A stretch of 50,169 nucleotides of DNA from a virus. Under the pieces are notes generated by a model that did no database searches, was not told the origin of the DNA, and worked only from the letters and a program-made list of their open reading frames with translations. Position 1 is the stretch's first letter, and each line of letters starts with the position of its first letter. The DNA is taken from IMG/VR virus record IMGVR_UViG_3300035703_000134, positions 1-50,169 of that record. One strand, given 5' to 3'. The position numbers and the translations under genes are program-made. Below, in pieces: positions 4,792 to 50,169 of this stretch.

Positions 4792-5841
4792 ATGGCTTCA
4801 ATCAAGCGGTATCCCGACAAGAACGTCGGGCCGAAATGGCGGGCGGTCGTACGCAAAATCGGCTTCAAGGCCCGCTCCAAGATTTTCGATCTCAAGACCG
4901 ACGCCGAGGCCTGGGCCGGCGACGTGGAAGCGTCCATGCGCCAGCCCACCTACCGCGAGCTCGCCAAGGCGCGCGAGCACACCGTCGGCGAGATCTTCGA
5001 GCGGTTCCGCAACGAGGTCTGCCCAGACCGCGCCGGCGGCAAGTGGGAGTCGACCCGGCTCAACCGCCTGATCCTCGACGTCGAGTTCACCAAGCGCCGC
5101 CTGGACCAGATCCGGTTCGAGGACGTGCGCGACTGGCGTGACCAGCGGCTCAAGGAAGTCTCCCCCGCCACCGTCAACCGCGAGATGAACCTCATCTCGG
5201 GCGTCTTCTCGCACGCGATCAAGGAGTGGTCGACGCCGCTGCCCTACAACCCGGTGTCGCTGGTCAGCCGCCCCAAGGGCGTGGCGCGCTATCGCTTTCG
5301 CCGCTGGCATCAGTACGAGCTCGACGCGGTCATCAAGGCCGCGGAGTTCGACGAGGCGGTGCTGCCCCAGATCGGCAAGGACTACGTGGTCTGGGCGCTG
5401 CTCATCGCCTGCGAGTGCGCCATCCGCCCGAAGGAGCTGTGCTCGCTGACCGTGCGGGACTTCCACGAAGCGGACCGCTACGTGCACGTGCACAAGACCA
5501 AGAACGACGCGCACAAGGACACGGCCGGTCGCCACGTGCCGCTCAACAAGCGGGCCACCGAGCTGTTCAAGAAGCTCTGCCAGGGCAAGGCGGCCGACGA
5601 CAAGATCGTCCCGATCCAGGAGGACACGCTCGGCGCGTACTTCCGCGAGCTGCGCATGAAGGCCGGGCTGAAGAACGCCGACCTGCGCTTCTACGACAGC
5701 CGGCACGAAGGCACGACCCGGCTCGCCAAGAAGCTGCCCAACGTGCTGGTGCTGTCAGCGGCCACGGGTCACAAGAACCTTCAGTCGCTCAAGCACTACT
5801 ACAACCCGCTGCCCTCCGAGATCGCAGCGATGCTCGACTGA
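4792..5841 (+). CDS. int: Tyrosine recombinase / phage integrase
   Basis: This 349-residue site-specific recombinase would integrate and excise the phage at the attP just upstream. The N-terminal ~60 residues resemble an arm-binding domain, residues ~62-150 a SAM-like core-binding domain, and ~170-349 the catalytic domain. Visible active-site residues are R212 (AIRPKEL), K235 or K237 in the beta-hairpin (KTKN), R304 (YDSRHEG), H327 (TGHK) and the nucleophile Y336 (HYYN). The usual first histidine of the HxxR motif is tyrosine (Y301). The ATG is preceded by AGGAGAGTCAG, a good ribosome binding site. The 3' end overlaps the convergent gene 5799-6185 by 43 bases. Confidence 0.95.
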   Translation: MASIKRYPDKNVGPKWRAVVRKIGFKARSKIFDLKTDAEAWAGDVEASMRQPTYRELAKAREHTVGEIFERFRNEVCPDRAGGKWESTRLNRLILDVEFTKRRLDQIRFEDVRDWRDQRLKEVSPATVNREMNLISGVFSHAIKEWSTPLPYNPVSLVSRPKGVARYRFRRWHQYELDAVIKAAEFDEAVLPQIGKDYVVWALLIACECAIRPKELCSLTVRDFHEADRYVHVHKTKNDAHKDTAGRHVPLNKRATELFKKLCQGKAADDKIVPIQEDTLGAYFRELRMKAGLKNADLRFYDSRHEGTTRLAKKLPNVLVLSAATGHKNLQSLKHYYNPLPSEIAAMLD

Positions 5842-6185: not shown

Positions 6186-6343
6186 AGCCACAGGTCCACC
6201 CCCATCATCACAGAGACCAAGCCGATCAGCGCCACCACGGCTACGAGCATCACGGTCTGGGTCTTGCGCTCTTGCTGGCGCCGGCAGGGGTAGGGCGTAG
6301 GGCACGGGCTGAGCCCGTTGTTGCAGGGTCCTGAGCAGCGCAT
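6182..6343 (-). CDS. Small single-pass membrane protein
   Basis: Fifty-three residues: a cysteine- and proline-containing N terminus (C3, C7, C14, C20), a basic stretch RRQQERK, and one transmembrane helix of about 20 residues (VMLVAVVALIGLVSVMMG) near the C terminus. The ATG overlaps the upstream stop as TGATG, and AGGAG lies seven bases upstream. No family is recognised. Small membrane proteins in early operons often act in exclusion or host takeover, but nothing here shows that. Confidence 0.7.
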   Translation of the reverse strand: MRCSGPCNNGLSPCPTPYPCRRQQERKTQTVMLVAVVALIGLVSVMMGVDLWL

Positions 6344-7008
6344 CACTCGCTCCTGTCGTCGTACGTCACGGAGCTCGTATCCCCCAGGCGCCACTTCGCG
6401 TGCTGCTCGACGCGGAACTTGCGCGTGGCCACCTTGAAGTCGGGGAACTTCATCTGCTGCGGGTTGAACGCCGGGTCGTAGAAGCGGCAACGGTTGTTCG
6501 GCTGCAGCGCGAACTGGCCATGGTCCAGGCGCAGCACGTTGTAGCTCTTGTGCTCGTCCACGGTCTCGCTGAACGTGAAGTCCGGGATCCGCGGATCGGG
6601 GCTGCACGTGTCCAGCGTGAACATGTACTCGCCGCCGTAGGTTCTCTTGTCCTTGGCGAAGAACTCTGCGCGCAAGCCCTTGAGGAAGGGCTTCTCGACC
6701 ACCGTCACGTGATAGCTCAATGCGTCCCAGATCTGGAGCACGTCCAGGGGCAGCTCGGTGAAGCTGTCCTCCTCGATCTCGAGCTCGCCCCAGTTCGGCG
6801 TGTAGAACGCGCTGATGGGCAGCTTGTCGTACAGCGCGCCGTACTGCGGGAGGTAGGTCTCAAAGCGGAAGGCCTCGCCGCGGATGGCCTTGACGCTGAC
6901 CCAGATGCCTTCGACGAGCGCCTCATCCTGGCGCTGCGGATCGAAGTCGTACAGGTACTCAGGGCGCACCAGCACCTTCACCGGTGGCAACGGACACACA
7001 AAGCTCAT
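6343..7008 (-). CDS. Hypothetical phage protein, 221 aa
   Basis: A soluble, mixed-charge protein with no signal peptide, membrane segment or nucleotide-binding motif that I can see. It begins MSFVCPLPPVKVLV and has several aromatic-rich strands suggesting a beta-rich fold. The start overlaps the end of the upstream gene by four bases, and the stop overlaps the next start as TGATG, so it is translationally coupled in the leftward operon. No family was recognised. Confidence 0.75.
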   Translation of the reverse strand: MSFVCPLPPVKVLVRPEYLYDFDPQRQDEALVEGIWVSVKAIRGEAFRFETYLPQYGALYDKLPISAFYTPNWGELEIEEDSFTELPLDVLQIWDALSYHVTVVEKPFLKGLRAEFFAKDKRTYGGEYMFTLDTCSPDPRIPDFTFSETVDEHKSYNVLRLDHGQFALQPNNRCRFYDPAFNPQQMKFPDFKVATRKFRVEQHAKWRLGDTSSVTYDDRSE

Positions 7009-14726: not shown

Positions 14727-14929
14727 GGGCGCACCGCTCGCACGAAGGTCGGCGTCGGCTTGGCGTCGTAGAACTGGGTGCGGCTCGCGCTGGGCGGGGT
14801 CCACCCGGTGTACCGGTGCCACGTGGCCTGCACGTCGGCGCCGCTGGTCCACCGGAAGTCGGGGTGCCCGACGGGGATCAGCGGATCGGTCCGGGTAGCC
14901 CCGGCGGGGAGGGAGGGGGAGGCAGCCAT
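14723..14929 (-). CDS. First gene of the leftward early operon, hypothetical 68 aa
   Basis: The ATG at 14929 is preceded by AAAGGA at suitable spacing and was preferred to a GTG at 14953. The protein is small and polar with several tryptophans and prolines (GHPDFRWTSGADVQATWHRY). It lies about 45 bases downstream of the predicted leftward promoter, so it is the first product of the operon. A GATAGC half-site overlaps the base just before its start. Function is unknown. Confidence 0.65.
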   Translation of the reverse strand: MAASPSLPAGATRTDPLIPVGHPDFRWTSGADVQATWHRYTGWTPPSASRTQFYDAKPTPTFVRAVRP

Positions 14930-19978: not shown

Positions 19979-21299
19979 ACCGTACCAGGAGCAGGCGATC
20001 CGCCGGATGGTGGAGCAGCCGTACCAGCTGCTGGCGCTACGCATGGGGGCCGGCAAGACGGTGGCCACACTGACGGCCATCGAGGAGCTGACGTACGACC
20101 GGTTCGAGGTCTGCAAGACGCTGATCGTGGCCCCGAAGCGGGTGGCGGAGCTTGTGTGGCACGCGGAGGTGCAGAAGTGGGACCACCTTCGGCACCTGAG
20201 GGTGTCACGCGTCGTGGGCAAGGCCGGGCAGCGGTTCGAGGCCCTGGTCGCCGAGGCGGACATCTACGTGATCAACCGCGAGAACTTCGTGTGGCTGACG
20301 GAGTGGGTCGACAGGAGCGGCGAGCCCTGGCCCTTCGAGTGCGTCGTGATCGACGAGAACAGGGGCTTCAAGGATCGGAGCTCCCAGGCCTGGAAGGCGC
20401 TGAAGAAGGTCCGCAAGGCCATCCGCAAGCTGTTCATCCTGACCGGCACGCCGGCACCCAACAGCCTGCTGGAACTGTGGCCGCAGGTCAGCATCCTGGA
20501 CCAGGGGCAGCGCCTGGGCACGGGTATCACCAAGTACCGGGACCGGTGGTTCACGCCGGACAAGAGGAACGGGCAGGTGGTCTACACGTGGAAGCTGCGG
20601 CCCGGGGCCAAGGAGGAGATCTACGAGGCGGTGGCCGACGTGATGCTGAGTGTGGAGAGCGGCGTGGAGCTGCCACCGCGGATCGACAACGTCGTGCAGG
20701 TGAGCTTCGACATGACGCCGTACCGGGACCTCGAGCGCAACCTCGCGACGGCCACCGTCACGGCGGTCAACGCGGCGGTGCTGGCCGGCAAGCTGGCGCA
20801 GATGGCCAACGGTGCGGTGTACGCCGACGCCGGCGGCGTGGAGGAGATCCACGAGGCGAAGCTGGATGCGCTGGAGGAGATCGTCGAGCAGGGCGAGCCG
20901 GTGTTGTGCTTCACGGCGTACGTGCACGATCAGACGCGGATCCTGAAGCGGTTCCCCAAGGCGGTGGTGTTCGACGGGGAGCGGTCCCTGCGTGCGTGGC
21001 AGGCCGGGCGGATTGACTTGCTGCTGATGCATCCGGCATCCGGTGGCCACGGCGTGGATGGACTGCAGGTCGGCGGGTCGGTGGCGGTCTGGTTCGGGCT
21101 GCCGTTCAGCCTGGACCTGTACGAGCAGGCCAACGCGCGGCTGCACCGCAGCGGGCAGGCGAATCAGGTGACGGTCCACCACCTCGTGGCCACGGGGACG
21201 GTGGACGAAAAGATCATGGCCGTCCTGGCGGCCAAGGGGAACGTGCAACGGGCACTGCTGCAAGCGGTGCGAGATCTGAAGGAAGGGGCAATGGCATGA
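19962..21299 (+). CDS. SNF2/DEAD-type phage helicase
   Basis: This 445-residue superfamily 2 ATPase has a Q-like motif RPYQEQAI, Walker A MGAGKT (28-33), motif II VVIDENRGFKD (near residue 130, usually DEAH/DELS) and motif III LTGTPAPN (near 160). The C-terminal lobe has HPASGGHGVDGLQVGG and motif VI QANARLHRSGQ (near 390). Stand-alone phage SNF2 helicases accompany VRR-NUC and PolA genes in replication-recombination modules. GGAGG lies six bases before the ATG. Its stop overlaps the next start as ATGA. Confidence 0.92.
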   Translation: MRFSPRPYQEQAIRRMVEQPYQLLALRMGAGKTVATLTAIEELTYDRFEVCKTLIVAPKRVAELVWHAEVQKWDHLRHLRVSRVVGKAGQRFEALVAEADIYVINRENFVWLTEWVDRSGEPWPFECVVIDENRGFKDRSSQAWKALKKVRKAIRKLFILTGTPAPNSLLELWPQVSILDQGQRLGTGITKYRDRWFTPDKRNGQVVYTWKLRPGAKEEIYEAVADVMLSVESGVELPPRIDNVVQVSFDMTPYRDLERNLATATVTAVNAAVLAGKLAQMANGAVYADAGGVEEIHEAKLDALEEIVEQGEPVLCFTAYVHDQTRILKRFPKAVVFDGERSLRAWQAGRIDLLLMHPASGGHGVDGLQVGGSVAVWFGLPFSLDLYEQANARLHRSGQANQVTVHHLVATGTVDEKIMAVLAAKGNVQRALLQAVRDLKEGAMA

Positions 21300-21757
21300 C
21301 GTCACGCGAGCGCATCGGAACGGCGCAGTACACCGACGACCTGGGCGAGGTCGGGCTCGAGGAGGTCGGCGACGTCGACATCATCAGGAGCTGCGGGATG
21401 GCCGCCCAGGGCAACCCACTGGGGCTGAGCATCTGGCGCTGGCGCGTCGGCGGCGACCAGCGCGAGGCCTTCGCGGTGGCCACCGGGCTGGTGGACCAGG
21501 GGCACGAGGCGGCGCTGGTCTACCGCGTCCTGTCGCACATGGCCGACGACGTGTGCCGGCACTGCCACGGACGGGGCTACGCCGTGCTGCCGGGCGCGCC
21601 GGTGTTGTCCGACGAGATCTGCGTCCACTGCCAGGGCACCGGAAGGGCGGCACTGGCAGGGGAGGCGGAGCGGGGACTGCAGGAGGAGATCCTGCGGATG
21701 GAGCGCGAGTTCGCGTCCGCCGTCATGCGCCGGCTGAGCCGGCAGCTGGATCTTTGA
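21296..21757 (+). CDS. Zinc-finger protein, possible late antiterminator
   Basis: This 153-residue protein has two CxxCxGxG knuckles (CRHCHGRGY at about residue 87 and CVHCQGTGR at about 109), a DnaJ-like zinc centre that also occurs in some lambdoid Q-type antiterminators. It is the last gene of the rightward early operon, the usual place of a late regulator, and the late promoter at 24908 is followed at once by a terminator as Q-dependent promoters are. Both points make it the best Q candidate, but the family match is not proven. The ATG overlaps the helicase stop (ATGA). Its 3' end overlaps the convergent gene 21723-22184 by 35 bases. Confidence 0.75.
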   Translation: MTSRERIGTAQYTDDLGEVGLEEVGDVDIIRSCGMAAQGNPLGLSIWRWRVGGDQREAFAVATGLVDQGHEAALVYRVLSHMADDVCRHCHGRGYAVLPGAPVLSDEICVHCQGTGRAALAGEAERGLQEEILRMEREFASAVMRRLSRQLDL

Positions 21758-22184
21758 GCACCGAGCGATCGAGCTCGAAGCCTTCGCGGACCACCTGCCC
21801 GCAGCACGGGCAGATTGGTTTCTTTTCGGCCCGTTCGAGGGCCCGGTAGACGGCGGAGGCGTGCACGCCGACTTGCTTGGCCGCAGCGAACGGCGTGAGG
21901 CCGTCCTGGAGGATCAGGTCGAGGGCCTGCATGGTCTTGGACTTCACGGGCTCGGGCTCGGTCGGCTGAAAGGTTTGCTTTCGCCATAGTGCCACGAGCG
22001 ACTCGGGCCACCGTTCGGGCAGGGTGGTGTAGGCCGAGGCCACGAGGCGCCCGTTGTGGTCCCAGGCGGCGATCGCCTGGGTGTCGGACTGGCTGGCGCG
22101 CTCGCGCAGCTTCTGACGCACTCCCGGGGACCAGGGAAGGGCCAGGAAGGACTCGAGGTCGACGGCACCGGCGGATTGGTTCAT
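21723..22184 (-). CDS. HTH and zinc-knuckle DNA-binding protein
   Basis: From the ATG at 22184 (ATGA overlap with the upstream stop) the protein is 153 residues. It contains a resolvase-like helix-turn-helix (LILQDGLTPFAAAKQVGVHA) followed by CPCCGQ, a zinc-knuckle half. The N-terminal half has a beta-rich AIAAWDHNGRLVASAY segment. It is the last gene of the second leftward operon and may be a regulator or site-specific DNA binder. Its 3' end overlaps the convergent gene 21296-21757. Confidence 0.75.
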   Translation of the reverse strand: MNQSAGAVDLESFLALPWSPGVRQKLRERASQSDTQAIAAWDHNGRLVASAYTTLPERWPESLVALWRKQTFQPTEPEPVKSKTMQALDLILQDGLTPFAAAKQVGVHASAVYRALERAEKKPICPCCGQVVREGFELDRSVLKDPAAGSAGA

Positions 22185-22387
22185 GACAGGGCCCCGTCTT
22201 CGATGTAGCGCAGCCACCGCTGGACGTCGGCGGTGCTGATCCAGTCGCCCCGGCTGCCGTCGGCCTGGACGGGGTTGAACTTGGGCAGCGCGAGGTGCTG
22301 GCGCAGCTGGTGGATCCGTTCGGACACGGCCTGGGCGGCCAGCTGGCGCTGGCGGCACTCGGCCTCGAGGCGGTTGATGTAGTTCAT
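22181..22387 (-). CDS. Hypothetical protein, 68 aa
   Basis: Starts at an ATG with GGAGACC upstream. An N-terminal helix (MNYINRLEAECRQRQLAAQA) is followed by QADGSRGDWISTADVQRWLR. The helical and acidic-basic pattern could be a protein-interaction helix. No family was recognised. Its stop overlaps the next start as ATGA. Confidence 0.65.
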   Translation of the reverse strand: MNYINRLEAECRQRQLAAQAVSERIHQLRQHLALPKFNPVQADGSRGDWISTADVQRWLRYIEDGALS

Positions 22388-24907: not shown

Positions 24908-24936
24908 TTGACGGGCTCGATCGTCTGCGGCACAAT
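24908..24936 (+). promoter_or_regulatory. Main late promoter (PR'-like)
   Basis: TTGACG (24908-24913) and CACAAT (24931-24936) with an ideal 17-base spacer form one of the strongest sigma70-like promoters in the window. A terminator hairpin follows about 30 bases later, before any gene, and the whole virion gene block lies downstream. This is the layout of a Q-dependent late promoter. Confidence 0.65.
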
Positions 24937-24966
24937 TTTCGCGCGGCACCTCGTCCGCGATTTCCC

Positions 24967-24994
24967 GGCCCGCCTCGTGCGGGCCTTCGCATTT
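24967..24994 (+). terminator. Leader terminator after the late promoter (tR'-like)
   Basis: GGCCCGC (24967-24973) pairs perfectly with GCGGGCC (24979-24985) around loop CTCGT, followed by TTCGCATTT. The T run is interrupted. It sits in the untranslated leader, so without antitermination the late transcript would be cut short. Confidence 0.6.
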
Positions 24995-25005: not shown

Positions 25006-25218
25006 ATGGAGCGAATCACCATCGAGATGGCCGACGACGGCAGCATCACCATCACGGCCGAGTCGCCGGGCGAGGAGCTCGAGACGATGGACGTGGCCAG
25101 CCCCGAGGAGGCAGCCGACGCGGTGCGTGAGCTGCTCGTCGAGGCGGCCGACGACGCCGCGGCAATGTGGGACGAGGAGGCCTCGCGCCGTCCACCGCAG
25201 CCGGGCCTGATGGCCTGA
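25006..25218 (+). CDS. Small acidic protein at the start of the late operon
   Basis: From the ATG at 25006 the protein is 70 residues: a beta-strand pair (MERITIEMADDGSITITAES) followed by an acidic helix (EELETMDVASPEEAADAVRE). Similar short acidic proteins often precede terminase genes in podoviruses (from memory). No signal peptide or membrane segment. The ribosome binding site is weak (GGGG). Confidence 0.65.
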   Translation: MERITIEMADDGSITITAESPGEELETMDVASPEEAADAVRELLVEAADDAAAMWDEEASRRPPQPGLMA

Positions 25219-25911: not shown

Positions 25912-26385
25912 ATGGCTCGCAAGAACGATGCGTCTCGGCTTGCCGAGCTATCGGGCGCGCCCCCTCGCATGGCCACGGTCGATGATCTCGAGGCCGCGGG
26001 CGCGCCCCGTAGTGGGCGTGCTCACGCATCGCAGATCAGCTCCAGCACCAAGCACCAGTCGGCTCACCGCATCAACCTGAAGGCGGTGGCCGAGGCCCTG
26101 GTCGACGAGGGGCTGGATCCGGCCACCGAGATCGCCAAGGCCCTGGCCAAGAAGATCCCGCTGTTCAAGAGCGGCCAGCAGGTCTTCGACGACAACGGCC
26201 TGCCGGTGATGGTGCACGCGGTCGATGAGGACACGCGGCTGCGCACGCTCAACGAGCTGCTGCAGTACACCCAGCCCAAGCTCAAGGCCGTCGAGGTCAA
26301 GATGTCGGGCAACCTGGAGCTCTCCAGCGAACAGCTCGACCAGCGCCTGGGATCCCTCCTGGCCAAGGCGGGTGGCTTGAAGTGA
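25912..26385 (+). CDS. terS: Terminase small subunit (probable)
   Basis: The ATG at 25912 has GAGG upstream; 157 residues. The central region is helical and charged (KALAKKIPLFKSGQQVFDDN), with a C-terminal segment RTLNELLQYTQPKLKAVEVK seen in small terminase-like phage proteins. Position immediately upstream of the large terminase, overlapping it by four bases, supports the role of DNA recognition. A clear helix-turn-helix is not obvious, so the assignment rests partly on context. Confidence 0.75.
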   Translation: MARKNDASRLAELSGAPPRMATVDDLEAAGAPRSGRAHASQISSSTKHQSAHRINLKAVAEALVDEGLDPATEIAKALAKKIPLFKSGQQVFDDNGLPVMVHAVDEDTRLRTLNELLQYTQPKLKAVEVKMSGNLELSSEQLDQRLGSLLAKAGGLK

Positions 26386-27854
26386 GCGTGCTGGACCTGT
26401 CCAAACTGGACATCTCCACGCTCAGCGACCAGGAAAAGCGCGAGCTCTACGAGCTGCTCAAGCTCAAGGACACGCGCGCCCGGCGCAACCGGCTGGCGGG
26501 CTACAAGCCCTACGCCAAGCAGGTCGCCTTCCATGAGGCCAGCTCGAGCTTCCGCGAGCGGCTCTTCATGGCAGGCAACCAGCTGGGCAAGACCTGGGCG
26601 GGTGCGTTCGAGTGCGCGATGCACGCTACCGGCCGCTACCCGGACTGGTGGACGGGCCGGCGCTTCAACTACGCGATTCGGTGCATGGTCGGCTCCGAAT
26701 CGGCCGAGTTGACCAGGAAGGGCGTGCAGCGCCTGCTGCTGGGCCCGCCCGAGATCCGCGAGGAATGGGGCACGGGCGCGATCCCGCACGACTGTGTGCG
26801 CGACACCAGCATGAAGCAGGGCGTGCCCGACGCCGTCAGCAGCATCGTGGTGCGCCACGTGTGCGGCGAGGACAGCGTCATCCAGTTCAACAGCTACGAC
26901 CAGGGCCGCACCAAGTGGCAGGCCGACACGGTCGACCTCGTGTGGTTCGACGAAGAGCCGCCGCTGCCCATCTACTCCGAGGGCCTCACGCGTACCAACG
27001 CCACCGGCGGCATGGTGTTCGTGACGTTCACGCCGCTGCTCGGCATGTCCGACGTGGTCAAGCGGTACCTGCTGGACAAACCCGCGGGCACCAACGTCAC
27101 GACGATGACGATCGACGACGTCGAGCACTACACGCCCGAGCAGCGCGCCGCGATCATCGCCTCATACCCCGAGCACGAGCGCGAGGCCCGTGCCAAGGGC
27201 ATCCCGATCCTGGGCTCGGGCCGCGTGTTCCCGATCGCCGAAGAGGCGATCAAGTGCACGCCGTTCCCGATCCCGCCGCACTGGTCGCGCATCTGCGGCC
27301 TGGACTTCGGCATCGACCACCCCACGGCCGCCGCGTGGCTGGCCTGGGACCGCGACAGCGACACGGTGTACGTCACTGACGCATACCGGGTGAAGGACGC
27401 CTCGATCGCGATCCACGCTGCCGGCATCAGGGCGCGCGGCGACTGGATCCCAGTGGCGTGGCCGCATGACGGCTTGCAGCGGGATAAGGGCTCGGGCGAG
27501 CAGCTCGCCGAGCAGTACCGCAGCCAGGGGCTGGCGATGCTGCGCCAGCGCGCGATGTTCGAGGACGGCAGCAACGGGGTGGAGGCCGGCGTGGCCGAGA
27601 TGCTCACCCGCATGCAGACGATGCGGCTGCGCGTCTTCAGTCACCTCACCGACTGGTTTGAAGAGTTCCGCCTGTACCACCGCAAGGACGGGCTGATCGT
27701 CAAGGACAGCGACGACTTGCTGTCCGCCACCCGCTACGCGCTGATGATGCGCCGCTTTGCCAAGACGCACGAAGAGGCTGAGGCGCGAATCCGCCCCGGA
27801 CGCATGGCCCCGGCCATCGACTTCGGCGTGTTCGACCCAGTCACTGGGTACTGA
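26382..27854 (+). CDS. terL: Terminase large subunit
   Basis: A 490-residue packaging motor and nuclease. The ATPase domain has Walker A GNQLGKT (residues 65-71) and Walker B VWFDEEPP (D190, E191). The nuclease domain shows CGLDFGIDHPTAAAW (D308) and KDSDDLLSATRYALM (near 441-455). The sequence resembles P22 gp2-like headful terminases. GTG start at 26382 overlaps the small-subunit stop (GTGA). Confidence 0.95.
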   Translation: MSVLDLSKLDISTLSDQEKRELYELLKLKDTRARRNRLAGYKPYAKQVAFHEASSSFRERLFMAGNQLGKTWAGAFECAMHATGRYPDWWTGRRFNYAIRCMVGSESAELTRKGVQRLLLGPPEIREEWGTGAIPHDCVRDTSMKQGVPDAVSSIVVRHVCGEDSVIQFNSYDQGRTKWQADTVDLVWFDEEPPLPIYSEGLTRTNATGGMVFVTFTPLLGMSDVVKRYLLDKPAGTNVTTMTIDDVEHYTPEQRAAIIASYPEHEREARAKGIPILGSGRVFPIAEEAIKCTPFPIPPHWSRICGLDFGIDHPTAAAWLAWDRDSDTVYVTDAYRVKDASIAIHAAGIRARGDWIPVAWPHDGLQRDKGSGEQLAEQYRSQGLAMLRQRAMFEDGSNGVEAGVAEMLTRMQTMRLRVFSHLTDWFEEFRLYHRKDGLIVKDSDDLLSATRYALMMRRFAKTHEEAEARIRPGRMAPAIDFGVFDPVTGY

Positions 27855-27865
27855 AGGACTGAAAC

Positions 27866-30109
27866 ATGGACGAACAACTGCAACCCACCGAGGTCGTCGA
27901 GATCGAGATCGAGGGCATCGATCCCGAAGAGGCGCGTCAGAAGATCGACGAGAAGCTGCAGATGTTCGGCCACTCGCTGGCCAAACAGCGCGACGAGTGG
28001 ATCCGGTCGCGCTACTCCTACGGCGTCGACAAGCGTTGGCTCGAGGACGAGGACCAGTACAACGCCAAGGACAACGTCAACAAGGCAGCCAGCCAGATGA
28101 TGACGTCCGTCGAGCAGGGCTACCCTGTCACGACGCAGGGCGCGCGGCCCACCCGCTCGACCGTCTTCATCGGCATGACGCGGCAGAAGACCAACGCCGC
28201 CGAGGCGCGCGTGGCCGACATCCTGCTGCCGACCGACGATCGCAATTGGGGCATCCAGCCCACGCCCAACCCCAAGCTCATGTCCATGAGCAAGGACGGA
28301 TCGATCGCCGGCGACAAGCTCACCGGCCAGCCCATGGTCGACCCGGCCACCGGCCAGCAGCTGCGCGTGAAGGACGTGGCGCACGCGGCCCTCGAGCTCG
28401 CGCGCCAGAAGGCCCGCGCGATGCAGAACGAGATCGACGACCAGCTCACCGAGTGCGACTACAACGCCGAGCTGCGCAAGGTCATCCACGACGCCGCCGT
28501 GCTGGGCACGGGCGTGATCAAGGGGCCGGTGGTCACCAACCGCGTGCGCCGCGCCTGGATGCCCTACACCGACGTGGCGGGCAATCAGGTTCAGCAGATC
28601 GTCGTGATGGAGGAGCTCTCGCCCGCGTCGTTCCGTGTGGACCCGCGCAACGTCTGGCCCGACCCCGGCTGCGGCGAGAACGTGCACAACGGCAAGGGCA
28701 TCTACGAGCGCGAGAAGCTCACCGCCAAGCAGGTGCGCGATCTGGCCAAGCAGCCCGGGTTCATGGAGGACCAGCTGCGCAAGGTGCTGGAAGAGGGACC
28801 GCGGCGCAGCGCCACGTTCCAGGAGCTCAAGGACGAGGACCAACGCGACGTCGCCCGGGACACCTACGAGATGTGGACGTACTGGGGCGAGGTCGAGCAC
28901 GAGGACCTGGAGTCCGCCGGTGTGGACGTCGGCGACAAGGACGTGCTGCGTACCGTCTCGGCCTGCGTGATCATGATCAACAACACGGTCGTCAAGGCCT
29001 TCCCCAACCCGTTGGAGGGCGGCGACCTGCCGTACGACTTCTACGTGTGGGAGAAGGTCAGCGGCTCGTGCTGGGGCTACGGCATCCCGTACCTCATGCG
29101 CGCCCAGCAGAAGGTGCTGAACGCCGCGTGGCGCCAAATGATGGACAACGCGGGCGTGAGCTCGGGCCCGCAGATCGTGATGAAGCCCGGCGTCATCCAG
29201 CCTGCCGACAAGCAGTGGCAGCTCACCAGCCGCAAGATCTGGTACGCCACCGACGACATGGACGACGTGCGCAAGGCATTCGCCACGTTCGAGTTCGACA
29301 GTCACCAGAACGAGCTGGCCAACATCATCAAGATGGCCACCGAGCTCGCCGACGCCGAGACCGGGGTGCCCACCATCATGCAGGGCGAGAAGGGCGCTGC
29401 ACCCGACACCGTCGGCGGCATGCAGATGTTGATGAACAGCGCCAACGTGGTACTGCGCCGGCTGGTCAAGCAGTTCGACGACATGGTGACCAAGCCCCAT
29501 ATCCGTCGGTACTACGACTACAACATGATGTACAACGAGAACGAGGAGCTCAAGGGCGACTTCTCGATCGACGCACGTGGGTCGTCCGCGCTGATGGTGC
29601 GCGACATCCAGAACCAAGCGTTCATGAACCTGCTGGCCGCGGGCACGAACCCGGTCTATGGCGCCTACATCGACACGCAGAAGCTCTTCGAGAAGGCACT
29701 GCAGGCCCAGCACATCGACCCGGCGGAGGTACTCAAGCCCGAGGCCGAGATCGAGAAGATGAAGGAGCAGCAGGCCATGGCCGCGGAGCAGGGCGGCCAA
29801 GAGGACCCGCGCATCGCAGCCGCCAAGATCCGCGCCGAGACCGACATCCAGAAGGTCCAGGCACAGAACGAAGGCGACATGGCCGAACTGCAGACCCGTC
29901 TGCAGATCGCCCAGGCCAACATCCAGGCCCGGCGCGAGGCGCAGCAGATGCAGCGCGAGATCGAGATGCTGAAGCTCGCCAACACGCAGAACCTGTCGCT
30001 CGAGCAGATCAAGGCACAACTGGCCAACACCGCCATCAAGGAACGCGGCAAGAAGGAACTGTTCGCTGCCGAACAGCGTCTGAAGCTCGTCTCTGGATCC
30101 GGCATCTAA
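27866..30109 (+). CDS. Portal protein (P22-like)
   Basis: This 747-residue protein matches the large podovirus portal family in length, position and motifs: the N-terminal QRDEWIRSRYSYGVDKRWLE, TRQKTNAAEARVADILLPTD and the central DAAVLGTGVIKGPVV region, with a long C-terminal helical tail rich in Gln/Ala/Arg (about residues 620-735) suited to a barrel or internal extension. It forms the dodecameric DNA gate at one vertex. AAGGA precedes the ATG. Confidence 0.92.
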   Translation: MDEQLQPTEVVEIEIEGIDPEEARQKIDEKLQMFGHSLAKQRDEWIRSRYSYGVDKRWLEDEDQYNAKDNVNKAASQMMTSVEQGYPVTTQGARPTRSTVFIGMTRQKTNAAEARVADILLPTDDRNWGIQPTPNPKLMSMSKDGSIAGDKLTGQPMVDPATGQQLRVKDVAHAALELARQKARAMQNEIDDQLTECDYNAELRKVIHDAAVLGTGVIKGPVVTNRVRRAWMPYTDVAGNQVQQIVVMEELSPASFRVDPRNVWPDPGCGENVHNGKGIYEREKLTAKQVRDLAKQPGFMEDQLRKVLEEGPRRSATFQELKDEDQRDVARDTYEMWTYWGEVEHEDLESAGVDVGDKDVLRTVSACVIMINNTVVKAFPNPLEGGDLPYDFYVWEKVSGSCWGYGIPYLMRAQQKVLNAAWRQMMDNAGVSSGPQIVMKPGVIQPADKQWQLTSRKIWYATDDMDDVRKAFATFEFDSHQNELANIIKMATELADAETGVPTIMQGEKGAAPDTVGGMQMLMNSANVVLRRLVKQFDDMVTKPHIRRYYDYNMMYNENEELKGDFSIDARGSSALMVRDIQNQAFMNLLAAGTNPVYGAYIDTQKLFEKALQAQHIDPAEVLKPEAEIEKMKEQQAMAAEQGGQEDPRIAAAKIRAETDIQKVQAQNEGDMAELQTRLQIAQANIQARREAQQMQREIEMLKLANTQNLSLEQIKAQLANTAIKERGKKELFAAEQRLKLVSGSGI

Positions 30110-30121
30110 GGAGACCACGAC

Positions 30122-30490
30122 ATGAGCAAGCACGCCGGCCAACTGGTCGCACTGACATTCCTGGGCCGCGATCTGGCCCACCGCGCGCACCTGCAGACCG
30201 ACAGCTACGCCGAGCACATGGCGCTGGGTGAGTTCTACGAGGGTCTGATCCCGCTGGTCGACTCATTCGCCGAGGCCTACCAGGGTCGCTACAACGAGCG
30301 ACTGGAAATTCCCCTGATGGACAACGAATTCGAGGGCGAGATCGCCGACGTGCTCGAGCAGCAAATGGCGTGGGTCGAAGACCACCGCGAGAAGATCTGC
30401 CCGCGCACTGAGAGCGCGCTGCACAACGAGATCGACTCAATCGTGCACTTGTACCAGTCAACGCTGTACAAGCTGCGGTTCCTCGCGTAA
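30122..30490 (+). CDS. DUF5856 family protein (ferritin-like fold)
   Basis: The 122-residue helical protein has the DUF5856 pattern LAHRAHLQTDSYAEHMAL, then LIPLVDSFAEAYQGRYNERL. The helix bundle with conserved His/Glu/Asp residues resembles Dps/ferritin-like proteins. It occurs in many phages, commonly near structural genes; the biochemical role is unknown. It follows the portal with GGAG upstream of the ATG. Confidence 0.8.
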   Translation: MSKHAGQLVALTFLGRDLAHRAHLQTDSYAEHMALGEFYEGLIPLVDSFAEAYQGRYNERLEIPLMDNEFEGEIADVLEQQMAWVEDHREKICPRTESALHNEIDSIVHLYQSTLYKLRFLA

Positions 30491-30514: not shown

Positions 30515-30544
30515 TTGCGCTACTACGTGCTGCAGGGATAGAAT
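30515..30544 (+). promoter_or_regulatory. Second late promoter cassette
   Basis: TTGCGC (30515-30520) and TAGAAT (30539-30544), spacer 18. The transcribed start CTTCGCGGGCGCAGTGCGCC matches the leader at 48056 in 16 of 20 positions and, less closely, that at 24937. A strong terminator follows at 30580, before the next start codon. Confidence 0.6.
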
Positions 30545-30579
30545 CTTCGCGGGCGCAGTGCGCCCTGAATTTGCCAACA

Positions 30580-30603
30580 GGCCCGCCAAAAGCGGGCCTT
30601 TTT
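30580..30603 (+). terminator. Terminator after the second late promoter
   Basis: GGCCCGC (30580-30586) pairs with GCGGGCC (30592-30598) around loop CAAAA and is followed by TTTTT: a textbook intrinsic terminator, sitting between promoter and gene. Confidence 0.85.
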
Positions 30604-30609
30604 CATTCC

Positions 30610-30813
30610 ATGATCGATTTCACCTCCGCCTCGTGGCACCAACTGCGCAAGTGGGCTGAAGAGCAGCTGCGCAAGGCCCGCGAGAAGAACGACGCTGTCG
30701 GCCTTTCGGACGCCGACACCGCCGCATTGCGGGGTGAGATCAGGTTGCTGAAAAGATTTCTCGACCTGCCCAACGCGGCAGCTCGGGGTGTGGTGGTTGA
30801 GCCGGACGAATAA
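30610..30813 (+). CDS. Small conserved phage protein, 67 aa
   Basis: Starts at an ATG seven bases after the terminator with no Shine-Dalgarno in between. Mostly helical (MIDFTSASWHQLRKWAEEQL, then ADTAALRGEIRLLKRFLDLP). Similar short proteins are frequent near portal and scaffold genes in podoviruses (from memory). Function unknown. An in-frame extension upstream exists but would cross the terminator. Confidence 0.65.
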   Translation: MIDFTSASWHQLRKWAEEQLRKAREKNDAVGLSDADTAALRGEIRLLKRFLDLPNAAARGVVVEPDE

Positions 30814-30834
30814 TCCCGCGCAGCCGTGTGAGTG

Positions 30835-30861
30835 AGCCGCCTTAGGGCGGCTTTTGTTTTT
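30835..30861 (+). terminator. Terminator before the scaffold gene
   Basis: AGCCGCC (30835-30841) and GGCGGCT (30846-30852) form a seven-pair stem followed by TTTGTTTTT. The ribosome binding site of the scaffold gene (GGAGAG) begins right after it. Confidence 0.8.
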
Positions 30862-31806: not shown

Positions 31807-32865
31807 ATGGCCATCCAAAATTACGGCACCGTTGCATCGCGGAATCTGATCCGCGCTGCACAAGGCATGCTCGAGCATGCTCAACCCATCACCGTTCTCG
31901 GTGACTTCGGCACCCAGCGCGAGATGCCGCAGAACTCGACGGACACCCTGGTGTTCCGTCGTACGCTGCCCTTCGGCGCTTCCACCACCGGCACCACGAT
32001 CGAAGGCTCTTCGCGCTACGTCGGCACCCCCGACATCGTCGCGTCGAACTTTGTGCTGGCTGAGGGCGTCACGCCCAACAGCAACACCATCTCGTTCCAG
32101 GACGTGTCGGTGCAGCTGCAGCAGTACGGTGTGCTGTTCAAGTACAGCTCGAAGGTCGAGCAGCTGTACGAAGACGACATCCCCGGCGAGATGGTCAAGC
32201 TGACCGGCGAGACCCTGGCCGAAGTGATGGAGATGGTGCGCTACGGCGTGCTGAAGGCCGGATCCACCGTGATCTACGCCAACGGCTCCAGCCGCTCGGG
32301 CATCAACACCGCGATCGGCCTGAACGCCCTGCGCAAGGCCGCTCGTACCCTCGAGTCCAACCGCTCGCGTCGCGTGACCTCGCGTCTGGCCCCTGGCGTG
32401 AACTTCGCCACCCGTGCCGTGCAGCCCGCGTTCATCGTGTTCTGCCACACGGACGCCGTGTCCGACGTGCGTAATCTGCCGGGCTTCACCCGCGTGGAAG
32501 AGTACGGCTCGTACAAGCCCATCCACGATCGCGAGATCGGTGCATGCGAAGACTTCCGCTTCATCAGCTCCCCGCTGCTGAAGTCCTTCGCCGGTGCCGG
32601 CTCCAGCACGCTGAACAGCATGCTGTCGGTGGGCGGCTCGAACGTCGACGTGTACCCCTTCATCATCATCGGTGAAGACTGCTGGGGTCAGGTCGCGCTC
32701 AAGGGCATGTCGGCCATCAAGCCGATCGTGCTCAAGGCCAGCCAGACCAACCACGCCAACCCGCTGGGCCAGTTCGGCTACGTGGGCGCGTCTACGTGGT
32801 TCGCCACCGTGCGCTTGAACGACGCCTTCATGGCTCGCATCGAGGCCGGTGTGACCGCTCTGTGA
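31807..32865 (+). CDS. Major capsid protein (N4-gp56 family)
   Basis: The 352-residue protein has the N4-gp56 hallmarks: a FGTQREMPQNSTDTLVFRR strand, an AEGVTPNSNTISFQDVSVQL segment, an E-loop-like QQYGVLFKYSSKVEQLYEDD and RYGVLKAGSTVIYANG, then the P-domain with a DVRNLPGF region and a conserved EYGSYKP segment. It forms the HK97-fold icosahedral shell. GAAAGGACC precedes the ATG. A strong hairpin lies just downstream. Confidence 0.92.
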   Translation: MAIQNYGTVASRNLIRAAQGMLEHAQPITVLGDFGTQREMPQNSTDTLVFRRTLPFGASTTGTTIEGSSRYVGTPDIVASNFVLAEGVTPNSNTISFQDVSVQLQQYGVLFKYSSKVEQLYEDDIPGEMVKLTGETLAEVMEMVRYGVLKAGSTVIYANGSSRSGINTAIGLNALRKAARTLESNRSRRVTSRLAPGVNFATRAVQPAFIVFCHTDAVSDVRNLPGFTRVEEYGSYKPIHDREIGACEDFRFISSPLLKSFAGAGSSTLNSMLSVGGSNVDVYPFIIIGEDCWGQVALKGMSAIKPIVLKASQTNHANPLGQFGYVGASTWFATVRLNDAFMARIEAGVTAL

Positions 32866-47801: not shown

Positions 47802-48047
47802 ATGAGCGCATCATGGCAACGCAAAGAGGGTAAGTCGGAGAGCGGTGGCCTCAACGAGAAGGGCCGTCGTAGCTACGAGCGCGAGAACCCTGGCAGTGAT
47901 CTCAAGCCGCCCCAGCCCGAGGGCGGCGCGCGCAAGAAGAGCTTCTGCGCGCGGATGAGGGGCATGAAAGCAAAACTTACGAGCAAGAAGACGGCGAACG
48001 ATCCGAACAGCCGGATCAATAAGTCGTTGAGAGCTTGGAAATGTTGA
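47802..48047 (+). CDS. DUF6321-like small basic protein
   Basis: The 81-residue protein has the conserved pattern WQRKEGKSESGGLNEKGRRS, KKSFCARMRGMKAKLTSKK and NDPNSRINKSLRAWKC, which I recognise as DUF6321-type from memory. The family is small, basic and phage-borne, of unknown role; nucleic-acid binding is plausible from charge. AGGAGA lies upstream. Its 3' end carries the -35 box of the third late promoter. Confidence 0.8.
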   Translation: MSASWQRKEGKSESGGLNEKGRRSYERENPGSDLKPPQPEGGARKKSFCARMRGMKAKLTSKKTANDPNSRINKSLRAWKC

Positions 48048-48055
48048 CCTAAAAT
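48027..48055 (+). promoter_or_regulatory. Third late promoter cassette
   Basis: TTGAGA (48027-48032) and TAAAAT (48050-48055) with a 17-base spacer form a strong sigma70-like promoter. The leader CTTCGTGGGGCCAGTGCGCC (48056-48075) matches the leader at 30545 in 16 of 20 positions. A strong terminator follows at 48081, before the coding start at 48119. Confidence 0.7.
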
Positions 48056-48080
48056 CTTCGTGGGGCCAGTGCGCCCGCGA

Positions 48081-48105
48081 AAAGCCGCCTTTGGGCGGCT
48101 TTTTT
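48081..48105 (+). terminator. Terminator after the third late promoter
   Basis: AAAGCCGCC (48081-48089) and GGCGGCTTT (48094-48102) form a nine-pair stem extended by a run of Ts to 48105. It lies in the leader, ahead of the hendecad protein's ribosome binding site (GGAG). Confidence 0.85.
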
Positions 48106-48118
48106 CTTTGGAGCAAAC

Positions 48119-50169
48119 ATGGCGACAGCAGCGAATCCGTTCGACGTCGGCGGGAACAATGGCGGGATCATCGGCGGAGCCATGACCAACGCGACCACGA
48201 ACTCGGCCGCGCAGTTCACCCCGCAACAGCGCGAAGTCAATCGCGCCACCGAGACGGCCGCTGGCCAGATCGACTCCCTCCTGGCCAAGGACAGCCCGCT
48301 GCTGCGCCGTGCTCGCGCAACCGCGATGCAGGACATGAACGCCCGCGGGCTGGTGAACAGCTCGATGGCGCAAGGCGCGGCAGTCGCTGCCATGATCGAT
48401 CGGGTAACGCCGCTCGCCCAGCAGGACGCGGACACCTACAACAAGCGCACCCTGGCCAACATGGGTGCGGTCAATGAGGCCGGCATCTTCAACGCGGCCG
48501 AGCAGAACAAGTTCGGCTTGCAGCGTGGCGAACAGTCTTTCACCGCTGAGCAGGCGGACAAGTCCCGCAGCTTCACGACCAGCGAGCGGCTGGGCTCGCA
48601 GCAATTCAGCTCGGAGCAGAACAAGGCTACTCAGAACTTCCAGGCCGCGCAGGCAGCCCTTGACCGCGCGCTGCGTGCGTCTGAGACGGACAAGAGCATC
48701 GAAGCTCAGAAGGCGCTGCAGACCGCGCAGTTCAACTTTGAGGGCGCGCAGAACGAGCTCAACCGGGTCAACCAGCGCGCGCTGCAGGAGAACCAGCAGA
48801 ACTTCACGGCTCAGCAATCGGCGCTCGAGCGCGCTCAGCAGGACAAGATCCTGACTGCGCAGCAGACGTTCCAGTCGGCGCAGGCCAACCTAGATCGTGC
48901 GCAGCAAGTGCTGCTGGCCGACAAGTCGATCCAAGCTCAGCAGAATCTTCAGCAGGCCCAGCAGCAGTTCCAGGCGGCGCAGGCCAGCCTGGATCGTGAG
49001 CAAGCCAAGCTGCTGCAGCAGGCCCAGCAGACATTTCAGTCGGCACAGAACGAGCTCGAGCGCGCAACGCAGGTCGCTCTGGCCGACAAGAGTATCGCCG
49101 CGCAGGCGGCTCAAGCTGAGGCGACCCGCAACTTCACCGCGGCGCAGGCTGCCCTGGACCGGGCTCAGCAAGTCTCGCTGCAGGAGAGCCAGCAGAAGTT
49201 CACGGCCGGCCAGAACGCTCAGCAGATCCAGGCGCAGAAGGAACTGCAGACTGCCAACCAGAGCTTTCAAGCTGCTCAGAACGAACTCGAACGCGCTCAG
49301 CAAGTCGCGCTCACCGACAAGAGCATTGCCGCCAATCAGGCACTCGAGGCTGCGCGTCAGAAGTTTCAGAGTGCACAGAGCGATCTGGACCGCGCTCAGC
49401 AGCGCGAGCTGCAGACTCAGCAGCAAGAGTTCACCCGTGGCGAGAACGCCGCAGGCCGCACGTTTGAGTCGGGTCAGCGTCAGCTTGATCGCGATCAGCA
49501 GTCATCGCTGGCGCAAGCAGCGCAAACGTTCCAGGCCACTCAGAACGAGAGGGATCGGGCTCAGCAGATCATGCTGACCGACAAGAACATCTCGGCGCAG
49601 CAGGCGCTCGAGCAGTCGCGCCAAGAGTTCCAGCGCGGCGAAGGCATCATTGCTCGTCAATTTGAGTCGTCGCAGCGCCAGCTTGATCGCGACCAGCAGT
49701 CCTCCTTGGCGCAGGCCGCGCAATCGTTCCAGGCATCGCAGAACGAAAAGGATCGGGCTCAGCAGATCATGCTGGCCGACCGCAACATCTCGGCGCAGCA
49801 GGCGCTGGAGAAGGCACGGCAAGAGTTTCAGCGCGGCGAGTCGGCGCTGGACCGCACCCAGCAGCGCGAACTCGCCTCGCAGGCGCAGTCGTTTCAAGCA
49901 TCGCAGAACGAGATGGATCGGGCTCAGCAGATCATGCTGGCCGACCGCAACATCTCGGCGCAGCAGGCGCTGGAGAAGGCACGGCAAGAGTTCCAGCGCG
50001 GCGAGTCGGCGCTGGACCGCACCCAGCAGCGCGAACTCGCCACGCAGGCGCAGTCGTTTCAAGCATCGCAGAACGAGATGGATCGGGCTCAGCAGATCAT
50101 GCTGGCCGACCGCAACATCTCGGCGCAGCAGGCGCTGGAGAAGGCACGGCAAGAGTTCCAGCGCGGCGA
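48119..50169 (+). CDS. Hendecad-repeat coiled-coil virion protein, 3' truncated
   Basis: The frame starts at an ATG after GGAGC and runs past the right edge without a stop: at least 683 residues. Residues ~1-115 are non-repetitive (MATAANPFDVGGNNGGIIGG, RARATAMQDMNARGLVNSSM); after that the protein is almost only Gln/Ala-rich helix with an 11-residue period, such as FQSAQANLDRA, QQVLLADKSIQ, AQQNLQQAQQQ. Hendecads give right-handed coiled coils. Podovirus ejection proteins form long helical internal structures, so an ejection-channel role is plausible. It would be the first of a set whose other end is the protein at the left edge. Confidence 0.85.
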   Translation, partial: MATAANPFDVGGNNGGIIGGAMTNATTNSAAQFTPQQREVNRATETAAGQIDSLLAKDSPLLRRARATAMQDMNARGLVNSSMAQGAAVAAMIDRVTPLAQQDADTYNKRTLANMGAVNEAGIFNAAEQNKFGLQRGEQSFTAEQADKSRSFTTSERLGSQQFSSEQNKATQNFQAAQAALDRALRASETDKSIEAQKALQTAQFNFEGAQNELNRVNQRALQENQQNFTAQQSALERAQQDKILTAQQTFQSAQANLDRAQQVLLADKSIQAQQNLQQAQQQFQAAQASLDREQAKLLQQAQQTFQSAQNELERATQVALADKSIAAQAAQAEATRNFTAAQAALDRAQQVSLQESQQKFTAGQNAQQIQAQKELQTANQSFQAAQNELERAQQVALTDKSIAANQALEAARQKFQSAQSDLDRAQQRELQTQQQEFTRGENAAGRTFESGQRQLDRDQQSSLAQAAQTFQATQNERDRAQQIMLTDKNISAQQALEQSRQEFQRGEGIIARQFESSQRQLDRDQQSSLAQAAQSFQASQNEKDRAQQIMLADRNISAQQALEKARQEFQRGESALDRTQQRELASQAQSFQASQNEMDRAQQIMLADRNISAQQALEKARQEFQRGESALDRTQQRELATQAQSFQASQNEMDRAQQIMLADRNISAQQALEKARQEFQRG
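49751..50169 (+). repeat. 165-bp near-identical tandem repeat at the right edge
   Basis: Two complete 165-bp units (49751-49915, 49916-50080) differ at only two bases; a third unit is cut by the window end after 89 bases. An older, more diverged unit starts at 49553 (198 bp away). 165 and 198 bp are 5 and 6 hendecads, so repeats keep the helical phase. Confidence 0.92.

Follow-up and report, generated by a model that had tools for sequence, protein, structure and literature searches.

Late gene control by Q proteins is, in its textbook form, built on one promoter, one pause and one terminator. Known Q proteins join RNA polymerase paused near the promoter, after which terminators are ignored, and in the known systems both a pause close to the promoter and a terminator in its vicinity are needed (PMC6606751, PMC9371919). 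In phages lambda, 21 and 82 (pR' and tR'; PMC6606751), the Q gene precedes a late operon with one entry point, a -10-like element of the initially transcribed region sets a sigma-dependent pause, and the Q binding element (QBE) is located between -35 and -10. AlpA of Pseudomonas aeruginosa (PMC7969949, PMC9371919) is a single Q-like antiterminator that acts at alpB as well as at PA0807, where the promoter is soon followed by a terminator (at PA0807, 26 bp from the start). It works through an element located between -35 and -10, needs a -10-like pause and controls host genes in two operons. A pause of another kind is given by the core-RNAP consensus G-10Y-1G+1 (PMC4604602, PMC9239205), and the promoter-proximal pauses of Escherichia coli, whose position the promoter dictates, fall at 10-15 nt (PMC7876045). 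For lambda nut/boxB (N) and HK022 put RNA (PMC9378689), antitermination is tied to a 5'-proximal RNA hairpin.

The DNA analysed here (the window, 50,169 bases, equal to the complete IMG/VR virus record) carries three cassettes of a sigma70-type promoter, a short leader and an intrinsic terminator. They are located at 24908-24985 (T, upstream of the terminase gene), 30515-30599 (H, before the scaffold/capsid genes) and 48027-48103 (L, before a long repeat-rich gene), and all are intergenic and on the late strand. With lambda, 21 and 82 they share the promoter, the early intrinsic terminator, a Q-type gene before the late operon and a promoter-proximal pause, which is predicted here. They differ in having three entry points instead of one, in that the predicted pause is a core-RNAP consensus pause at about +11 and not a sigma-dependent pause further downstream, and in that neither a -10-like pause element nor a QBE was found in the cassettes. 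AlpA is similar in its use of several promoters and differs in its targets, two host operons as opposed to three points of one phage late operon. Because the sequence shows a promoter, a pause signal and a terminator at each of three gates, and in addition a Q-like gene, each cassette is read as a late promoter that would be gated by Q-type antitermination, with loading at the promoter-proximal pause and three entry points in total. The probability of this reading is put at roughly 0.7.

Judged by its gene families, the phage appears to be temperate, podovirus-like and of the HMO-2011 kind. An integrase gene (4792-5841) was assigned alongside DNA-metabolism genes, and the capsid gene was assigned at 31807-32865. 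Portal matches among GenBank phages were all below 60% identity and included HMO-2011 and its relatives; GenBank megablast returned no cultured relatives. In the nearest cultured phages (Pseudoalteromonas phage Y3, MW202426, and Pmp11), no H or L cassette was seen. The only host clue is one MAG contig, which is not reliable as a host assignment: a 57.7-kb contig of a Prosthecobacter MAG (L128, L228-L230) contains a Q-like gene and three cassettes, and is probably a phage contig, a prophage or mis-binned. A minus-strand gene at 6343-7008 gave a strong match to PHROG 3704, annotated as ferredoxin, and is a possible auxiliary metabolic gene.

All cassette features are on the plus strand. The T promoter (24908-24936) consists of -35 TTGACG (24908-24913), a 17-nt spacer and -10 CACAAT (24931-24936). 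Its leader (24937-24966) contains the pause core (G-10 at 24943, C-1 at 24952, G+1 at 24953) and the potential stem CGCGG/CCGCG, followed by the terminator hairpin GGCCCGCCTCGTGCGGGCC (24967-24985), which has a weak U-tract. A small ORF of 70 aa (MERITIEM..., 25006-25218) follows directly, and a similar start (MAKTITIEM) follows T in the relative L025. The first large late gene after T encodes the large terminase subunit (26382-27854, plus strand), and the portal/head-tail adaptor gene (27866-30109, plus strand) lies between T and H.

The H promoter (30515-30544) has -35 TTGCGC (30515-30520), an 18-nt spacer and -10 TAGAAT (30539-30544). The leader (30545-30578) carries the pause core (G-10 at 30552, C-1 at 30561, G+1 at 30562) and the potential hairpin GGGCGC(AGT)GCGCCC (30551-30565), and the intrinsic terminator (30579-30599) was identified by consensus scan. 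Directly behind H lies an ORF of 67 aa (MIDFTSASWH..., 30610-30813, plus strand), and similar starts follow H in relatives. A second strong terminator at 30834-30853 comes without a new cassette, so that the 67-aa gene is placed between two terminators. The gene directly 5' of H (30122-30490) matches PHROG 858 (starvation-inducible transcriptional regulator) and DUF5856. For L, both promoter (48027-48055; -35 TTGAGA 48027-48032, 17 nt, -10 TAAAAT 48050-48055) and terminator (48080-48103) were obtained by consensus scan. The L leader (48056-48079) has G-10 at 48063, C-1 at 48072 and G+1 at 48073, with the potential hairpin GGGC(CAGTGC)GCCC at 48063-48076. The gene behind L (48119-50169, plus strand) encodes a long repeat-rich late protein and runs off the record. 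Near-identical tandem segments (QQALEKARQEFQRGESALDRTQQREL...) make up the C-terminal part of this protein, and the record may have broken at this repeat.

A preliminary description of this DNA had named strong copies at 30515 and 48027, and promoter, leader and terminator were found at both places. The leaders at 30545 and 48056, described there as matching in 16 of 20 positions, do match, in 17 of 20. The leader motif CTTCGNGGGNNCAGTGCGCCC has exact matches in the window at 30545 and 48056 only. With up to 3 mismatches, three window hits were obtained against 0.11 expected, the third being a coding match at 14727. The T copy is unrecognisable from its leader sequence alone. The proposed diverged third copy at 24908 nevertheless fits the T position of relatives (TTGACG-17-CACAAT, pause core, terminator hairpin), where orthologous promoters read TTGAC(C/G/A)-17. 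As an evident cassette of promoter, leader and terminator occupies this position in relatives, 1.2-1.5 kb upstream of the gene for the large terminase subunit, the 24908 copy is, judging from sequence, the T cassette of this phage.

The 17 common letters of the two strong copies, the palindromic look of the leader and its near-fixed distance from -10 would also suit a DNA site, either a Q binding element or a palindromic repressor operator overlapping the start. This is considered quite improbable. Known Q sites are located between -35 and -10 (PMC6606751), and no further copy with up to 3 mismatches was found near the repressor gene of the window or its early promoters. Since the three leaders within one genome can differ widely in their letters, with no common DNA sequence readable, a fixed DNA sequence as the recognition target appears disfavoured. 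A repressor operator was rejected on the same variability and on the lack of any window copy at up to 3 mismatches apart from the coding match. A promoter for a phage RNA polymerase was rejected likewise, as no such polymerase was present among the ORFs scanned and the leader letters are too variable.

For conservation, viral contigs were scanned with the leader motif, which was found in 10 contigs, with the full -10/leader/terminator context in 9 of them. Relatives identified by their terminase (66-98% identity) have a cassette after the portal gene with changed letters and the same layout. Whole-contig scans of relatives gave a fixed late-strand trio: T before terminase, H between portal and scaffold, and L before the long virion protein. 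The cassette is conserved in these relatives; the outcome that the preliminary description had named as refuting its idea, a leader not conserved in related phages, was not observed. Tabulation covered 15 contigs of at least 50 kb (G001-G006, G017-G024, G032:C279). T, H and L, each with a terminator or terminator-like hairpin, were present in 10/15 of these near-full-length contigs (G001, G002, G005, G006, G017, G018, G019, G021, G023, G032:C279), where the T sites of G001 and G005 come from a Q-gene-anchored promoter and terminator scan and the L terminator of G032:C279 is bulged-looking and below the scan cut-off. One contig (G004) has all three sites with an H that lacks a terminator. Two sites were found in the other four (G003, G020, G022, G024), and the G003 contig ends before the expected T site; some contigs in the comparison are fragments.

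Two samplings were made independently of the leader. An L cassette was present at 16/16 loci picked by homology to the L-side protein with the protein start in view. In the T cassettes obtained by scanning from the Q-like gene for a promoter plus terminator within 6.5 kb, the pause core was at index 17-19; it was missing from most of the stray matches. Given the full context in 9/10 motif contigs and the cassette at all 16 homology-chosen loci, its recurrence is not due to chance, as far as sequence comparison can tell. Three separate entry points into one late operon, as had been proposed, are therefore predicted, each with a terminator right after the promoter and kept in relatives.

At two loci (L120, L221), the H cassettes of G004 (24720) and G024 (33915) keep -10 and pause core and have no terminator before the next ATG; they are natural ungated versions. 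These two relatives, together with the varying quality of the terminators, would be expected if the cassettes were ordinary strong late promoters beside terminators that separate modules, with leaky readthrough sufficient for late expression and no antitermination. The position of the terminators makes this very improbable: a terminator downstream of the promoter would end the promoter's own transcript within a few tens of nt, and most relatives show this layout at three places, accompanied by a Q-like gene.

For analysis of the leader, 21 cassettes were aligned with MAFFT. Columns C-1 and G+1 were invariant, and G-10 and G-2 were present in at least 90%. Among 51 distinct leaders, part of which were first found by leader-based patterns so that the leader-free samplings weigh more, G-10, Y-1 and G+1 occurred in 51/51, G-2 in 45/51 and T-3 in 42/51; these counts refer to a core of three letters with a tolerance of a few nt in its register, and are not independent because the leaders are related. 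The core was indexed at 16-20 nt after -10, and G+1 was positioned 17 or 18 nt past -10 in 45 leaders. In a subset of 29 leaders, the core was present in all 29 against 9.1 expected from shuffles. The conserved core is the RNAP consensus pause sequence G-10 Y-1 G+1, at which polymerase would be predicted to pause. If transcription starts 7 nt after -10, as assumed here, the pause would occur at an RNA length of about 11. This resembles the G1p promoter-proximal and G-10Y-1G+1 pauses (PMC7876045, PMC4604602, PMC6336406) in its position within 10-15 nt and in the three core letters. No report was found in the open literature of a consensus pause being conserved at phage late promoters as the signal that loads an antiterminator.

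Signals of the described Q systems were searched for in the same material. No -10-like pause element was detected: 23/25 leaders had no hexamer with A2 and T6, and the other two matched at 3/6 positions only. Upstream of -10, the three promoters of one genome showed no excess similarity indicating a shared element (permutation p=0.16), a test that a short or degenerate site could escape. Both results, the poor U-tract of T and the missing H terminators of G004 and G024 were counted against the Q-gate reading.

The leader can also form a hairpin, with arms at about G-10 to -7 and G+1 to +4, i.e. on the same nucleotides as the pause core. A stem of at least 4 bp was possible in 47/51 leaders, where shuffling predicted 28.9; the summed z is 6.6 when the leaders are taken as independent, which they are not. 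Left and right arms covary: T at +2 goes with a left arm GGAC (10 to 1) and C at +2 with GGGC (17 to 2), and for GGAC-GTCC versus GGGC-GCCC a Fisher p of 2e-5 was obtained with phylogeny not removed. Swapping arms between leaders weakened folding (pooled permutation p ~0.001; H 0.01-0.05, T ~0.06-0.12, L not significant), and many leaders taken singly had no significant hairpin energy. The loops show no conserved letters, and Rfam returned no match to a known structured RNA family. Alternative pairing between leader and terminator (an attenuator) was rejected, being possible by inspection at L and not at H or in most relatives.

The stem excess and the covariation of the arms would be explained directly if the conserved object were an RNA hairpin of the boxB/nut or put type, bound by a phage protein or acting alone on RNAP, with the pause consensus following incidentally from one arm being rich in G and the other in C. 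Stems of 4-6 bp with loops of 4-6 nt are boxB-sized, and some cassettes share almost only stem and core. On the Prosthecobacter-MAG contig (L228-L230), the three versions read GCGGGCG(AGTG)CGCCCGC, GGGC(CCGTGC)GCCC (second) and ACGGA(TCAG)TCCGT (third), the last two being an example. The primacy of the hairpin is still judged unlikely, as the four leaders that cannot form a 4-bp stem keep the pause core, and Y-1 is retained in all 51 despite its location in the loop of the commonest hairpins. An RNA site would also not need the near-constant distance between -10 and G+1. Compared with nut and put, which it resembles as a 5'-proximal element of boxB-like size, the potential cassette hairpin starts at about +1, directly before the terminator, its loop is unconserved and the phage encodes a candidate factor that resembles Q and not N. 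Since the three-letter core lies inside a G+C-rich palindrome, the constraints of pause and hairpin are not fully separable.

The candidate factor is encoded at 21296-21757 (plus strand, 153 aa) by a gene that closes the rightward early operon and ends 3.2 kb before T. The protein has two CxxCxGxG zinc-finger motifs and a lambda-Q-like N-terminal motif, and matched PHROG 127/6060 ('anti-termination protein Q-like'). A 23-member profile was searched against 177,635 PDB sequences, and the best match was lambda Q (7ubm, E=1.4e-4), with a match that extends over an N-terminal motif and some of the zinc region. With an AlphaFold model of the protein (pLDDT 79), the first three Foldseek matches in the PDB were all lambda Q (best: probability 1.00, TM 0.54, E 0.019). 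Profile search, Foldseek and PHROGs thus agree on a distant relative of lambda Q, a similarity that derives partly from the common DnaJ-type zinc motif. The gene was present in 10/16 related contigs (49-91% identity) and at 47 viral loci, and tblastn with the protein gave none in cultured GenBank relatives. Close after it, a minus-strand stretch at about 21757-22200 has similar sequence in the window and several relatives, and is possibly a conserved convergent gene. In Pseudoalteromonas phage vB_Pun_Y3, a gene annotated as DnaJ chaperone (L130 552-1136) with CxxCxGxG-type motifs was found at the expected Q position, with a TTGACT promoter and two terminators downstream; its product may be a Q-like antiterminator.

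In the Q-gate reading, host sigma70 polymerase would start at each cassette promoter and pause after about 11 nt at the G-10 Y-1 G+1 signal built into the start of the transcript. The consensus pause would perhaps be strengthened by sigma still holding -10. Unaided polymerase would get no further than the terminator, which follows within a few tens of nt. Polymerase joined during the pause by the Q-like protein would ignore the cassette terminator and later ones. Terminase and portal genes downstream of T, capsid and tail genes downstream of H and the long virion protein gene downstream of L would then be switched on together. A 5'-terminal RNA hairpin would probably form on leaving the polymerase, and may keep Q engaged or protect the long message. 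Each late module would in this way be supplied with fresh antiterminated polymerases. A wider proposal is tentative and on the doubtful side: that a Q-family factor is recruited by consensus pause and nascent 5' hairpin without QBE or sigma-dependent pause, so that any promoter given the short start sequence would become a late promoter, with three synchronised gates.

The interpretation offered in the preliminary description is partly supported. Its distributed form of lambda-type control agrees with the three sites and with a distant Q relative encoded before the late genes; it is not wholly new, as one Q-like factor acting at several promoters is already known outside phages from AlpA (PMC7969949). 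Its idea of the leader as antiterminator loading site is a conjecture: the leaders conserve a consensus pause together with a potential hairpin, and no fixed sequence for binding. Three Q-type gates in one phage late operon were not found described in open papers, subscription literature lying outside the search.

Seemingly the same gate is thus placed at three fixed positions, conserved in uncultured environmental phages related to HMO-2011. Dozens of such gates form a natural alignment that isolates what a gate needs: a promoter, a terminator and, at a defined distance, the consensus pause, in most cases together with a potential hairpin. It becomes directly testable whether an ordinary consensus pause close to a promoter can serve to load a Q-type factor, and why one phage operon should have several loading points. 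The cassette also provides a sequence signature by which late modules and Q genes may be located in metagenomic phages.
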